Source: Bermanella sp. 47_1433_sub80_T6 (GTDB lineage Bacteria > Pseudomonadota > Gammaproteobacteria > Pseudomonadales > Oceanobacteraceae). From it: DNA of 32,143 bases. A program made the position numbers and the translations under genes. Where the stretch lies: the NCBI GenBank assembly GCA_002162985.1, contig MAAD01000229.1, forward strand, positions 1-32,143, given 5' to 3'. Positions 24,503 to 31,649 of this stretch are shown here, piece by piece; position 1 is the first letter of the stretch; every line of letters begins with the position of its first letter. The notes beneath the pieces were generated by a model, which made no database searches, was not told where the DNA came from, and was given only the letters and a program-made list of their open reading frames with translations.

Positions 24503-24530
24503 TTGACCCAAGCCGGAATGCTTTTAAAAT
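24503..24530 (+). promoter_or_regulatory. sigma70-like promoter upstream of moxR
   Basis: TTGACC (24503-24508)-16 nt-TAAAAT (24525-24530). Confidence 0.5.
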
Positions 24531-24540
24531 GCACGGCAAA

Positions 24541-24738
24541 GCCCAACAAAAACAAGAACTTGGAAACCCTGCCATGAGCAACAGCGAACATCTTGACCCC
24601 CCTGCCATGAGCAACAGTGAACTCTCTGGAACCCCTGCTATGACCAATCATGAACACCATGGAACCCCAGCTACGAGCGAAAATGAACAACTGGCTGCCC
24701 CTGTCATGAGCAATCGTGAACACATAGCTGCGCTACAG
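24541..24738 (+). repeat. 33-bp tandem repeat array spanning the moxR translation start region (six units, outer ones degenerate)
   Basis: Units start at 24541, 24574, 24607, 24640, 24673, 24706. Encoded: AQQKQELGNPA/MSNSEHLDPPA/MSNSELSGTPA/MTNHEHHGTPA/TSENEQLAAPV/MSNREHIAALQ. Confidence 0.88.
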
Positions 24739-25668
24739 GCCAGCCTTCAAGAACAGATTATTGGCCAGCCCGATCTGGTCAATGCACTATTAATTGCTAT
24801 TTTGGCCGACGGACACCTGTTGGTGGAAGGCGCGCCCGGCTTGGCCAAGACCAAGGCCATTAAAACCCTGGCCGACAATATCGAAGCCGATTACCAACGC
24901 ATGCAATTTACGCCGGATCTATTGCCGGCAGACATTACCGGCTCTGAAATCTATCGCGCGCAAAGCGGCGAATTTGTTTTCCAGAAGGGCCCTATTTTTA
25001 ATAATTTGGTGCTGGCCGATGAGATCAACCGTGCCCCGGCCAAGGTACAATCAGCATTATTGGAAGCCATGGCTGAACGCCAGGTGAGTGTGGCGGGCAG
25101 CACCTACCCGTTGGATGATTTATTCCTGGTGATGGCCACTCAAAACCCCATCGAACAGGAAGGCACCTACCCGTTACCGGAAGCCCAACTAGACCGCTTT
25201 CTAATGCATGTGCGCGTCGATTACCCGGATGCTCAGGCCGAAACCGATATCTTGCGTTTGGCCCGTGGTGAAGCTCAGGCGGGACAAAGCCCCATGCCCG
25301 AAACCAAACTCAGCGCCGCCAGCATCTTTGCGGCGCGCCAGGAAGTATTGGCCATTCATTTAAGCGAGCGTGTGGAGGAGTACATCATTCAATTAATCAT
25401 GGCCACCCGTAAACCCCAAGGTTATGGCGATGATATGGCCAGTTGGCTGGAATATGGCTCCAGCCCCCGTGGCACCATCGCGCTGGATCGCTGTGCTCGT
25501 GCCCATGCCTGGCTTGCGGGGCGCGATTATGTGAGTCCGGACGATGTGCAGGCTGTCTTGCATCCGGTATTACGCCATCGCCTGTTGGTGAGCTTTGACG
25601 CGGAAGCCTCCGGCATGAACACCGATCGCATCATTAACGAGCTTATTTTACGCGTGGCTGTGCCTTAA
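24574..25668 (+). CDS. moxR: MoxR-family AAA+ ATPase (start uncertain: 24574, 24607, 24640 or 24706)
   Basis: LVEGAPGLAKTKAIKTLA (Walker A), LLADEINRAPAKVQSALLEAM (Walker B), MATQNPIEQEGTYPLPEAQLDRF. Start at 24706 gives about 320 aa, the usual MoxR length. Confidence 0.93.
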   Translation: MSNSEHLDPPAMSNSELSGTPAMTNHEHHGTPATSENEQLAAPVMSNREHIAALQASLQEQIIGQPDLVNALLIAILADGHLLVEGAPGLAKTKAIKTLADNIEADYQRMQFTPDLLPADITGSEIYRAQSGEFVFQKGPIFNNLVLADEINRAPAKVQSALLEAMAERQVSVAGSTYPLDDLFLVMATQNPIEQEGTYPLPEAQLDRFLMHVRVDYPDAQAETDILRLARGEAQAGQSPMPETKLSAASIFAARQEVLAIHLSERVEEYIIQLIMATRKPQGYGDDMASWLEYGSSPRGTIALDRCARAHAWLAGRDYVSPDDVQAVLHPVLRHRLLVSFDAEASGMNTDRIINELILRVAVP

Positions 25669-25675
25669 GCCTCAT

Positions 25676-26656
25676 ATGACGACCTCAACTTCCATCACCG
25701 ACCCTCAGCATTACTTGCATGGCTTTTTTGTGCCCAGCGCCAAGACCGATGAGCATCAGCTGACGCAGTTGCGCATGCTGGCCAAACGCCTGCGCCTGGC
25801 CAGCCTGCCCCAGTTAAATGGTTTGTTGGCGGGCTCCCACATGAGCCGTCAAAAAGGCCGTGGCCTGGATTTAGATCAGCTTAGAATTTACCAGCCCGGG
25901 GATGACATTCGCAGCATCGACTGGCGCGTCACTGCGCGCACTCAAAAACCCCATACCCGTGTTTATAAAGAAGAACGGGAACGGCCGGTGATGATCTTGT
26001 GTGATCAACGCAGTCCCATGTTTTTTGGCAGTCAACGTAGTTTTAAATCAGTAGTGGCCGCTCAGTGCAGTGCGCTGATTGCCTGGGCCGCATTAGACCA
26101 CGGAGATCGCGTTGGGGCCGTGGTATTAGGCGACCAAAAAGAAACCGATTTTCGCCCCAAGCAGCGCGTAAGCCATGTATTAAATATTTTAAAAACCATC
26201 AATGAATTTAATCATGAGCTTACACAGCCATCAGACGTTCATGCAGAAAAGCCAAAAACTTCCCTAACCGACAGCCTTAATCACCTCAAGCAAAGCCTCA
26301 AGCCTGGTACCACCTTGTACTTAATTAGCGATTTTTATGATCTAAGTGAACAGGACAAGGCCACCTTGTTTTCACTAAAACGTCACAACCACATAGTGGC
26401 GCTGCAGGTTTTTGATCCATTGGAACGTACCGCCCCTCCCAGTGGATTATATGCAGTGACGGATGGCGACAATCAGGGATTTTTAGACACACAGAATAAA
26501 CAGGCCATGCATGCTTATAGCGAAGCGGTCAGTGTATTTCAGCAAGGCATTGAAAATACATTTAAATCCTTGGGCATTCATCACCAGCAAATTAATGCCG
26601 GCGAGATTCCCTACGCCGCCATTAAATTAGCCCTTGAGCAAAGGGGAGCCAGATGA
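25676..26656 (+). CDS. DUF58 domain-containing protein
   Basis: GRGLDLDQLRIYQPGDDIRSIDWRVTARTQKPHTRVYKEERERPVMILCDQR. Confidence 0.93.
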   Translation: MTTSTSITDPQHYLHGFFVPSAKTDEHQLTQLRMLAKRLRLASLPQLNGLLAGSHMSRQKGRGLDLDQLRIYQPGDDIRSIDWRVTARTQKPHTRVYKEERERPVMILCDQRSPMFFGSQRSFKSVVAAQCSALIAWAALDHGDRVGAVVLGDQKETDFRPKQRVSHVLNILKTINEFNHELTQPSDVHAEKPKTSLTDSLNHLKQSLKPGTTLYLISDFYDLSEQDKATLFSLKRHNHIVALQVFDPLERTAPPSGLYAVTDGDNQGFLDTQNKQAMHAYSEAVSVFQQGIENTFKSLGIHHQQINAGEIPYAAIKLALEQRGAR

Positions 26657-27087
26657 ATCCTCTTGATCAGTTAAAAGATATTCACCTGCCCGCCGACGTA
26701 TCCTTGTGGCCCCTGGCCTGGCCCTGGTGGATACTCATAATATTGTTGGTGGCATTGCCCACTTTGGCTGTTTATCTAAGACGAAAAAATCGCTGGCGCA
26801 GACAAGCGTTACAACAATTAAACAATATTGAAATAGCCAATAAAAATATTTGCATTCAACAATGCAATCGCTTGTTAAAGCAGGTGGCGCTGTATCGTTT
26901 TGGCCAGCCTTGTGCGGCATTAAGTGGTGAGCCCTGGCTTGAATTTTTAGACAGTAAAGTAAACAACGCCCTATTTATGCCAGAGCATGTGGAATTTGCC
27001 AGCGCCGTGGATCGGCCGGATTCATCCATTGACCCCCAGACACTTAAACGTGCGGTGGCCACCTGGATAAGGAAACACAAATGTTAA
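26653..27087 (+). CDS. DUF4381 domain-containing protein
   Basis: LKDIHLPADVSLWPLAWPWWILIILL..., position between DUF58 and BatA; overlaps both neighbours by a few nt. Confidence 0.85.
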   Translation: MNPLDQLKDIHLPADVSLWPLAWPWWILIILLVALPTLAVYLRRKNRWRRQALQQLNNIEIANKNICIQQCNRLLKQVALYRFGQPCAALSGEPWLEFLDSKVNNALFMPEHVEFASAVDRPDSSIDPQTLKRAVATWIRKHKC

Positions 27088-28109
27088 GTCTTCAATGGCC
27101 ACTATTGTTGCTGGCGCTGCCGTTACCCTGGCTGGTATATCGTTTTGCCCCGGCCTATAAAACCGAGCAAAGCCAGGTCTTTGCTCCCAGCCTCATGATG
27201 CTGGCGGAACAAAAAGAAATGCAAACCGCCAAACCTCATATTAGCTTATGGGTGATGGCTGCGGCTGCCTGGTTATGTTTGGTATTGGCCGCCACCCGCC
27301 CTACGTTTGTGGGTGAACCTCAAGCCATTACCAGCAGTGATCGCAATATGATGCTGGCGGTGGATTTATCGGACAGTATGAAAGAAGAAGACATGGCTTT
27401 TCAGGGACGCCTGGTGAACCGCTTACAAGCCGTAAAGGCGGTACTTACCGAATTTATAGCGAAGCGTCAGGGAGACAGACTGGGGCTCATATTATTTGGC
27501 TCCAAAGCCTATGTGCAAACACCGCTCACCTTCGACTTAGAAACCTTGCAAATTCTATTGGATGAAGCCACCTTTGGTTTGGCCGGTCGCAAGACTGCCA
27601 TCGGCGATGCCATTGGCTTATCAGTGAAACGCTTATTGGATTTACCCGAGTCAAATCGTGTGCTGATTATTCTCACCGACGGGCAAAATACCGCCGGTGA
27701 AATTGAGCCCTTGCAGGCGGCCAAATTAGCAGCCCAGGCGGGGGTTAAAATTTATACAATCGGCATTGGGGCAGATGAATTAGTGATACAAGGATTTTTT
27801 GGTCCCAAGCGCATCAACCCCAGCCGTGATTTGGATGAGGTGACCCTCACCACCATCGCCCAGGATACCGGTGGCCAATATTATCGCGCCCGCAACCTGG
27901 CCGAGCTGGAACAAATTTATTCGGTGCTGGATGCCCTGGAAACCATAGAAATGGAAGAGCAATCCATTCGCCCGGAAAAATCACTATTTCATTATCCTTT
28001 GGGCTTGGCTTTGTTACTGGCAAGCTGCCTGTATTTAATGCAATTGCCTGCTTTTTCCACTCTGGTTAATCGTGTTAAAAACATCAACAAGGGGAAGGCC
28101 CATGTCTGA
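27081..28109 (+). CDS. batA: VWA domain-containing protein, BatA-like
   Basis: MMLAVDLSDSMKEEDM (MIDAS DxSxS), LIILTDGQNTAGE; TM segments at both ends. Confidence 0.88.
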   Translation: MLSLQWPLLLLALPLPWLVYRFAPAYKTEQSQVFAPSLMMLAEQKEMQTAKPHISLWVMAAAAWLCLVLAATRPTFVGEPQAITSSDRNMMLAVDLSDSMKEEDMAFQGRLVNRLQAVKAVLTEFIAKRQGDRLGLILFGSKAYVQTPLTFDLETLQILLDEATFGLAGRKTAIGDAIGLSVKRLLDLPESNRVLIILTDGQNTAGEIEPLQAAKLAAQAGVKIYTIGIGADELVIQGFFGPKRINPSRDLDEVTLTTIAQDTGGQYYRARNLAELEQIYSVLDALETIEMEEQSIRPEKSLFHYPLGLALLLASCLYLMQLPAFSTLVNRVKNINKGKAHV

Positions 28110-29979
28110 CTTTCACCTGTTACGCCCGGAGTGGTTATGGGCATTATTACCCTTATTATTAACGCTGATTTTTCAGCGCCGCCAAAAAGCATTGAGTGGT
28201 CAATGGAAAAACATCATTGCCCCGCAATTACAAGAATACTTACTTAAAAAAACCGCCCATTCCTCCCGCAATAATAGTTTATTTGTGGGCGGATTATGGA
28301 TAGCGGCGATATTGACCATAGTAGCGTTAACGGGTCCCAGCTGGCAGAAACAACCGTCCCTGGTTTATTCAAGCCAAGGGGGTTTAGTGATTGCCCTGGA
28401 CCTATCCTTGTCCATGACAAGCCAGGATCTAAGTCCATCCCGATTACAACGGGCCAAATATAAAATTACCGATATATTAAAACAAACCGGACAAGATAAT
28501 ATCGCTTTGATTGCCTACGCAGGGGACGCCCATGTGGCGAGTCCGCTCACCCGGGATATCAAGACCATACTCAACATGTTGCCGGTACTGAGCCCCTATA
28601 TAATGCCCACCCCGGGCAGCAACCTGGTATCTCTGGTGAGGGAAGCCAGCGCCCTGTTTGAACAGGGTAAAAGCTCCCCCAGAAAATTATTACTGGTCAC
28701 CGACGGGGTTGAGCCCCAGGACATTCAGGAGGTCAGCCAGTTACTTAAAAAAGCGAAAATCGAGTTGAGCATTTTAGCCGTGGGAACGGAACAAGGCGCC
28801 CCCATTATGAAACCCGATGGACACTTCTTTAAAGACAGTCAGGGGCAAGTGATATTGCCGGTACTTGAGTGGGATAATTTACAACAGCTAAGCGATGCCA
28901 CCCAGGCGCGCATCACTAAAATAAGCAACGACGACAGCGACATCAACTACCTCATTAGCAATCATTCACTGCAACAAAGTTTTGAGCAAGAACAAAAAAG
29001 TCTGGAGTTTGATCAATGGCTCGACAGTGGTTACTGGTTAATTTTACCCATTTTATTGCTGTCCCTGACGTTGTTTCGCCGAGGTATATTGCTAGTGGCG
29101 GTGGTCGCCATTTTGAGTGCGCCACAAGAAAGCTGGGCCGACAATACGCTACCGGATTTTTTACTCAATAAAGACCAACAGGCCCACAAGCAATTTGAAA
29201 TAGACCCCAATCAAGCGGCGCAATTATTTGAAAATCAACAGTGGAAAGCCAGTAGCCTGTATAAAGCCAAAGACTATCAAGGTGCACTGGATATTTGGCA
29301 GCAGTACAACGATGCCCAAAGCCTTTACAATGCCGGCAACGCCCTGGCCCAATTGCAACGCCTGGATGATGCCATAGGCAATTATGAACAGGCTATGGAG
29401 TTGAATTCCAAACTACAGGATGCCAAGACCAACAAGGCGATTGTTGAAGCCCTAAAGAAACAACAAGAGCAACAACAAAAGCAGGAGGGTGAGCCGGGAG
29501 ACAAGGAACAATCGGATCAGGAATCATCGGATCAAAAATCGTCCGACCAAGAATCCTCGGAGCAGGAAAAATCCCAGCAATCGCAAGATGAACAACAACA
29601 ATCTTCCCAGCAGTCACAAGATGAATCGGGTCAAGATGGTGAAGACTCATCCAGCGACAACCCCACCGAACAAGGGGAACAAAAAGAAGCGCAAAATCCT
29701 ATGGCCCAACAGCAAACGGACGAAGAAAAACAAAAACAGCAAGAAGCCCAGGCTCAACAAGCTAAACAAGATGGCGAGCAAGCAGAAAATGACGAACAAA
29801 GCAGCGCTCAGGCCATGGTTAAAAGCACTCAACAATTAGAAAAAGAACAGGCTATGCAGCAATGGATAGAACGCATCCCGGATGACCCGGGTGGTTTATT
29901 ACGTAACAAGTTTTTATATCAGTACAAAAATCGAAACCAACAAAATAACAATCAAAATGGAGATAGGAAACCGTGGTAA
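28102..29979 (+). CDS. batB: VWA + TPR protein, BatB/BatC fusion-like, with Q/E/S-rich C-terminal region
   Basis: VIALDLSLSMTSQDLSPSRLQRAK, LLLVTDGVEPQD; TPR-like LYNAGNALAQLQRLDDAIGNYEQAMELN; start at 28102 preceded by ggggaagg. Confidence 0.85.
   Translation: MSDFHLLRPEWLWALLPLLLTLIFQRRQKALSGQWKNIIAPQLQEYLLKKTAHSSRNNSLFVGGLWIAAILTIVALTGPSWQKQPSLVYSSQGGLVIALDLSLSMTSQDLSPSRLQRAKYKITDILKQTGQDNIALIAYAGDAHVASPLTRDIKTILNMLPVLSPYIMPTPGSNLVSLVREASALFEQGKSSPRKLLLVTDGVEPQDIQEVSQLLKKAKIELSILAVGTEQGAPIMKPDGHFFKDSQGQVILPVLEWDNLQQLSDATQARITKISNDDSDINYLISNHSLQQSFEQEQKSLEFDQWLDSGYWLILPILLLSLTLFRRGILLVAVVAILSAPQESWADNTLPDFLLNKDQQAHKQFEIDPNQAAQLFENQQWKASSLYKAKDYQGALDIWQQYNDAQSLYNAGNALAQLQRLDDAIGNYEQAMELNSKLQDAKTNKAIVEALKKQQEQQQKQEGEPGDKEQSDQESSDQKSSDQESSEQEKSQQSQDEQQQSSQQSQDESGQDGEDSSSDNPTEQGEQKEAQNPMAQQQTDEEKQKQQEAQAQQAKQDGEQAENDEQSSAQAMVKSTQQLEKEQAMQQWIERIPDDPGGLLRNKFLYQYKNRNQQNNNQNGDRKPW
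29506..29625 (+). repeat. degenerate 15-bp coding minisatellite in batB/C
   Basis: gaacaatcggatcag/gaatcatcggatcaa/aaatcgtccgaccaa/gaatcctcggagcag/... encoding EQSDQ/ESSDQ/KSSDQ/ESSEQ/EKSQQ. Confidence 0.8.
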
Positions 29980-31649
29980 AAAAATCTTTATTATTTTTGT
30001 GTTTAATTTTATCCGTAACCAGCAGCTGGGCAGTAAAATTTGAAAGCTCGGTGGACCGTAGTCAAATTAGTGATGGAGAATCACTGGTACTCACCGTGCG
30101 TTATAACAATAACGTGTTAACCGGCAATCCTGACTTTAGCCCACTCAAACAACAATTTGAAATTATCAATCAGCAACGCAAGAGCAGCTTCCAGTTCATC
30201 AATGGCCAGAGTAATTCCTGGACCATCTGGACCCTGCATTTAATGCCTAAACGCTTGGGTAACCTGGTGATACCTTCCTTAAATTATAAAGGGGAAACCA
30301 GCAAGGTCATCCAAATTCAGGTTGAAAAATTATCCAACAGCATTACCAGCCAACAGCAGAAGGAAGTTTTCTTTCACACCGAAATTGATGTAAAAACCGC
30401 CTATGTGCAAGGGCAAATTTTATACTCAGAGAAACTGTATTTTTCTGTGCCTCTGGATAACAGCCACCTCAATGAGGTAGAGGTGGATGAAGCCGTGGTA
30501 CAAGCATTGGGTGAAACCAAAAATTACCGTACTCAGCTTAATGGCCGCACCTTTGATGTGTATGAACGCAACTATGTTATTTACCCCCAAGTAAGTGGCG
30601 AAATGATCATCCCAGGGCCCAGATACACAGGGGAAGTCAACAACGGTCGCTGGCGTCCCGGTCGCCCCATTCGCGTGAGCCAGCCCCCTTTAAAAATTCA
30701 GGTATTGCCTCAGCCCGCCAGCTACCCACAAGCCAGCTGGTTACCCGCGCAAGCCGTGACACTGGATTATGAATGGCGTGGCAATCCGCAAGCTTTATCT
30801 CTTGGCGAACCGTTAACCTTACAAATCGAATTTAAGGCAAAGGGGTTGAGTCAGGCGCAGTTGCCAGAAATCGTATTGGCACCCAGCAAGGGTTTTAAGT
30901 ATTACCCTGACCAGGCCAAGACCCAGGACGTGACCGGCGAAGACGGCATCATTGGCATTCGTAGTCAGAGCATTGCCATTGTGCCCACCGAAGTGGGTAG
31001 CCATACCCTGCCTGAAATTCGCATCCCCTGGTGGAATACCCAACATGGGCGCATCGAATACGCCGTGATTCCGGCCCAACGTTTAACCACCTTTAATAAC
31101 AATACTACTCAAGACAATGGCCCACTTAACCCAGAGCCAATCGTAGCGCCCTCTCAATCTGACCAATCCAGCACGGTAACAACGCCAGCAAGCGGTTCAC
31201 TATTATGGCCCTTGGTCAGTTTAGGTTTGTTGGTATTATGGCTAGCCACCTTGGGATTGTGGTGGACAAAGAGTCAAGCCACTAATAAGACACCCACCAC
31301 CCTCAATCAACCAACGCCCCTCAACCCGCGTTTAAAAGATGTTCGCCAGGCGTGTCGTGATAATGATGCCAGCCAGGCCCGAGCCAATATATTGAGCTGG
31401 GCAAGGTCACAATGGCAATTTGACGGTAACAGCCTAAGTAATTTGGCCAATCAAGTGGAAGAGCCGGCCTTAAAAGAAGCGCTTGTGCAGTTGGATAATT
31501 TTTTATATTCCCCGGTTAACGACAGCTGGCAGGGTGAATATTTATGGCAATTACTGCGTGCACATAAACCCGCTAAAACAGCTGAGCCAAAAGGCTCAGT
31601 ATTAACCACTTTATACCCAGATAACACAGCACAGGCCTCACATGGATAA
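29973..31649 (+). CDS. batD: BatD-like protein (oxygen tolerance family)
   Basis: Signal peptide, FESSVDRSQISDGESLVLTVRYNN, IPSLNYKGETSK.IQIQV, late TM segment; terminal position in the Bat operon. Confidence 0.88.
   Translation: MVKKSLLFLCLILSVTSSWAVKFESSVDRSQISDGESLVLTVRYNNNVLTGNPDFSPLKQQFEIINQQRKSSFQFINGQSNSWTIWTLHLMPKRLGNLVIPSLNYKGETSKVIQIQVEKLSNSITSQQQKEVFFHTEIDVKTAYVQGQILYSEKLYFSVPLDNSHLNEVEVDEAVVQALGETKNYRTQLNGRTFDVYERNYVIYPQVSGEMIIPGPRYTGEVNNGRWRPGRPIRVSQPPLKIQVLPQPASYPQASWLPAQAVTLDYEWRGNPQALSLGEPLTLQIEFKAKGLSQAQLPEIVLAPSKGFKYYPDQAKTQDVTGEDGIIGIRSQSIAIVPTEVGSHTLPEIRIPWWNTQHGRIEYAVIPAQRLTTFNNNTTQDNGPLNPEPIVAPSQSDQSSTVTTPASGSLLWPLVSLGLLVLWLATLGLWWTKSQATNKTPTTLNQPTPLNPRLKDVRQACRDNDASQARANILSWARSQWQFDGNSLSNLANQVEEPALKEALVQLDNFLYSPVNDSWQGEYLWQLLRAHKPAKTAEPKGSVLTTLYPDNTAQASHG

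Follow-up and report, generated by a model that had tools for sequence, protein, structure and literature searches.

The moxR gene in the 32,143-nt stretch of DNA analysed here (the window), which comes from an uncultured gammaproteobacterium, begins with a tandem array of five 33-nt units that repeat the gene's own translation start region. We consider it probable (about 75%) that the array is an ordinary lineage-specific duplication accident, with the main start at the first copy, a tolerated disordered tail and inner starts that are decaying relics.

The moxR start region is a five-unit tandem array

The gene was assigned to the MoxR family of AAA+ ATPases by its Pfam domains, AAA_3 (PF07726, E 3.7e-64) and AAA_lid_2 (PF17863, E 1.7e-22), together with its Walker motifs and its operon with DUF58, VWA and Bat-type genes. 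Among 38 homologues, the Walker A motif GAPGLAKT was invariant bar one position, and the Walker B region LADEINR was mostly invariant. A long divergent gene lies 5' of moxR on the opposite strand. The features are as follows.

24503..24530, + strand: predicted sigma70-type promoter of the moxR operon, TTGACC-16-TAAAAT, a motif common to 7 of 8 congeners
24559..24591, + strand: unit 1, CTTGGAAACCCTGCC-ATG-AGCAACAGCGAACAT, with the ancestral Shine-Dalgarno (SD) sequence CTTGGAA, ATG 24574 and codons 2-6; predicted main translation start
24592..24624, + strand: unit 2, CTTGACCCCCCTGCC-ATG-AGCAACAGTGAACTC, with ATG 24607; SD lost (TTGACCCC)
24625..24657, + strand: unit 3, TCTGGAACCCCTGCT-ATG-ACCAATCATGAACAC, with ATG 24640; GGAA retained
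24658..24690, + strand: unit 4, CATGGAACCCCAGCT-ACG-AGCGAAAATGAACAA, with ACG 24673 at the start-codon position; GGAA retained
24691..24723, + strand: unit 5, CTGGCTGCCCCTGTC-ATG-AGCAATCGTGAACAC, with ATG 24706, where the conserved core of MoxR begins; decayed SD (CTGGCTG)
24574..25668, + strand: moxR-family AAA+ ATPase, predicted 364-aa long form including the 44-aa repeat tail
25676..31649, + strand: downstream operon of DUF58, DUF4381, VWA, VWA/low-complexity and BatD genes

Near its end (29434-29770), the second of the VWA genes has Q/S/E-rich low-complexity repeats of its own, with 12- and 15-bp periods.

The array itself is real. Its units follow a register that begins 15 nt 5' of each start codon and fill 24559-24723, slightly less than the 24541-24738 given by the first-pass annotation, which had otherwise described it correctly: four ATGs (24574, 24607, 24640 and 24706) and one ACG (24673) share the moxR frame and are spaced 33 nt apart, and GGAA stands 8 nt 5' of 24574, 24640 and 24673 only. 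TRF, a tandem-repeat check proposed at that stage, returned period 33 at 24559-24668 (score 114) and again at 24627-24689. Identity at lag 33 peaked at 93 of 132 bases in a 132-nt interval (mean across the whole stretch 35.5, SD 6.1), which was the strongest repeat signal among lags 12 to 119 in the window. The units show no indels relative to each other, and the moxR frame is free of stops through all five; with a period that is a multiple of three, the array is an in-frame coding tandem repeat. Successive neighbours match at 26/33, 22/33, 24/33 and 19/33 bases (58-79% identity), and the array thus lacks the near-identical units of a variable-number (polymorphic) tandem repeat.

Four extra units were inserted exactly at the start codon

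We compared the source genome (G000), a draft assembly in 350 contigs with 75% completeness, with nine congeners, one genome per species. A moxR orthologue was found in eight of the nine, with core identities of 80-95%. None of these eight orthologues carries the array, not even the one that is 95% identical. Each has CTTGGAA 5' of a single moxR ATG, and in seven of the eight a promoter TTGAC(C/G)-16-TAAAAT lies 32-48 nt before that ATG. In this genome ATG 24574 lies 43 nt from the promoter, exactly as far as the moxR ATG of the congener sequence L010 does from its own.

Ungapped comparison with L010 revealed an insertion footprint. The L010 start region from -30 to +3 matched unit 1 (28/33 bases at 24574) but none of the other units (15/33 at 24706), whereas positions +1 to +36 matched 31/36 bases at 24706 and 17/36 at 24574. 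The other congeners repeated this pattern, with 5' homology to 24574 and coding homology to 24706; it was faintest in the most distant one (L017). Since the upstream homology leads to the first ATG and the coding homology to the last, 132 nt, or four extra units, must have been inserted exactly at the start codon. The start codon of the array-free congeners is the homologue of ATG 24706, in agreement with the first-pass proposals that the MoxR core begins at the last unit and that the start region underwent in-frame tandem duplication. These alignments indicate that the 132 bp were gained by in-frame tandem duplication at the moxR start codon within this lineage.

The ninth congener, G007, is uninformative about the array, because its contig C147 (L140) reaches only to position 24555 of the window, falling four bases short of the array, and its bin lacks a moxR orthologue. 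It is 83% identical over the gene adjoining moxR, and the assembly may have broken there at a shared or similar array.

The mean synonymous difference among the units (pS 0.44) was lower than that of the MoxR core against L010 (pS 0.72), which is compatible with a duplication after the split from L010 and fits the absence of the array there. The array nevertheless looks old and decaying rather than like an actively varying copy-number tuner, because neighbouring units that are only 58-79% identical are too diverged for recent slippage-prone expansion.

A plausible course of events can be given. Slippage or unequal recombination would have copied a 33-nt stretch holding the SD, the spacer, the start codon and moxR codons 2-6, and copying would have ended at five units, with all of the added sequence in frame. 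Ribosomes would now start mainly at the promoter-proximal first copy, the keeper of the ancestral promoter spacing and SD. The resulting MoxR would carry four 11-residue repeats as a disordered tail that is tolerated, and the inner starts would be decaying relics that yield at most minor shorter forms.

Translation probably starts at the first copy

The first-pass annotation had noted that the usual MoxR length of about 320 aa matches initiation at the last unit. The signals at the individual sites argue against the last unit as the main start. SD pairing energies for units 1-5 were -3.3, +0.7, -3.3, -3.3 (on the ACG) and -1.5 kcal/mol, with -3.3 in the congeners. The predicted local fold (-35 to +35) was -5.5 at 24574 and became steadily stronger to -12.7 at 24706, while the congeners ranged from -4.4 to -10.0. 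In a longer whole-transcript fold, ATGs 24574, 24607 and 24706 were mostly paired; most ATGs, 24574 among them, being paired there, the folding evidence is taken as no more than supportive. A further in-frame ATG at 24529, absent from the first-pass annotation, overlaps the predicted -10 box and would therefore lie upstream of the predicted transcript. ATG 24574 combines the ancestral promoter distance and SD with the weakest local structure, whereas at ATG 24706 the SD is weak and the local structure the strongest in the array. We infer that 24574 is probably the site of initiation and that MoxR is then 364 aa long, its first 44 residues forming the tail. ATG 24706 opens the conserved protein yet seems poorly equipped for initiation, and the GGAA at unit 3 could still allow some internal initiation.

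The same features bear on the earlier proposal of a multi-start platform, in which several ATGs are used, yielding a ladder of MoxR isoforms or more total initiation, and the number of units tunes MoxR dosage. Three in-frame ATGs do precede 24706, two of them with GGAA at 8 nt, and N-terminal proteoform pairs from alternative in-frame starts have been documented in Salmonella (PMC11005335). However, unit 4 has no ATG, units 2 and 5 lack the GGAA SD, the units are too diverged to be freshly expanding or actively changing in copy number, and no second array was seen among 108 moxR start regions. We therefore regard the platform as unlikely. Its fuller version, that copying of the initiation region created several working starts and that gain or loss of units sets the MoxR level and the tail length relative to the Bat partners, is very unlikely. 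If inner starts did work, the array would be a simple evolvable dosage device. The moxR ATGs resemble the Salmonella pairs in that long and short forms could arise in frame, and differ from them in that the alternative starts come from tandem duplication and that use of the inner ones looks improbable.

The N-terminal tail is predicted to be disordered

An alignment-based AlphaFold model put most of the core above pLDDT 90 and almost every residue from 1 to 40 below 50; the low tail values are partly due to the alignment, which contained no tail homologues. The 44-aa tail is thus predicted to be disordered. Neutral simulations gave a mean pN/pS of about 1.0; the ratio among units was 0.61 (P = 0.105, with a wide null), and the MoxR core gave a pN of 0.029 against L010. 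A ratio somewhat under the neutral mean makes weak selection on the tail possible, and constraint on it would be at most weak. The open frame was rejected as proof of translation, as 64% of the neutral simulations were likewise stop-free.

These data also bear on a reading of the tail as a selected array of short linear motifs (consensus LGTPAMSNSEH) whose binding partner might be the MoxR ring or a Bat/VWA protein. All units share an unchanged GAA codon, the pN/pS ratio is below 1 and the frame and unit length have been maintained, and a functional cyanobacterial MoxR carries an N-terminal extension (PMC11432383). Nevertheless, the selection signal was not significant, the tail is absent from all eight moxR-bearing congeners and it is predicted to be disordered, which makes a selected motif array quite improbable. 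Tolerance of a tail without selected function is what we infer instead.

SyMRP, the cyanobacterial protein, is a MoxR AAA+ ATPase of Synechococcus whose extension was argued to be expressed since the second ATG has no ribosome binding site. As in the long form predicted here, the extension precedes the MoxR core. SyMRP differs in coming from another organism and probably another MoxR subfamily, and its extension is not known to be a start-codon repeat.

The units might instead be DNA or RNA regulatory repeats, an operator or leader, with translation from 24706 alone. The array lies directly 3' of the promoter, and 33 bp is close to three helical turns. Yet the ancestral SD at 24574 means that ribosomes would enter in frame there, 24706 has the poor initiation context described above, and there was no Rfam match up to E = 1; a regulatory role of this kind is highly improbable. 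An assembly artefact, which the draft state of the genome and the G007 contig end at the array edge might suggest, is scarcely credible, because collapse or duplication of reads would not create units that differ from one another at 7-14 of 33 bases, and the flanks are normal.

Start-region duplications elsewhere

The preferred reading, a duplication accident with the main start at the first copy, describes a way in which an N-terminal extension may be born: an in-frame duplication of the start puts the old start codon inside the protein, and the promoter-proximal copy takes over. A literature search on duplicated start codons or SDs found no paper on such an array. The array resembles in-frame coding minisatellites or VNTRs that arise by slippage in its head-to-tail units, its unit length in multiples of three, its lineage specificity and its presence, apparently tolerated, in a protein end predicted to be disordered. 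Unlike in these, the moxR unit holds an SD and a start codon, so that duplication copies the initiation signal too, and the units have diverged.

We surveyed 0.84 Mb of the source genome (661 open frames, each 150 codons or longer) for other start duplications and found one convincing case, in glnS. An in-frame 21-bp duplication (L157:203-244, contig C7; ATGTCTGAAGAAAAGGTCAAA-ATGACTGAAGAAAAGGCCAAA, 19/21 identical) encodes MSEEKVK-MTEEKAK. The congener G004 shares it (L206) and the other eight lack it; no start-region duplication was found in 0.4 Mb of the congener G005. Like the moxR array, the glnS duplication copies the first codons and their ATG in tandem and in frame; unlike the array, it has two copies of only 21 bp, has no SD within the unit and is shared with another species. 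As a second, independent case in the same genome, glnS suggests that such events are not rare, and that in-frame start duplications are recurrent and tolerated in this group.

No comparable repeat spans the start in any of the 108 moxR start regions, which came from relatives and public genomes. The sole strong match was in L055, a more distant gammaproteobacterial MAG, where a nearly perfect 19-bp direct repeat begins about 171 nt 5' of moxR. Weak 12-bp ATG repeats of two copies in L188 and L273, both in long frames, were set aside, since they look like chance or internal repeats. Two further weak two-copy 12-bp ATG repeats occur in short frames (L184 and L200).
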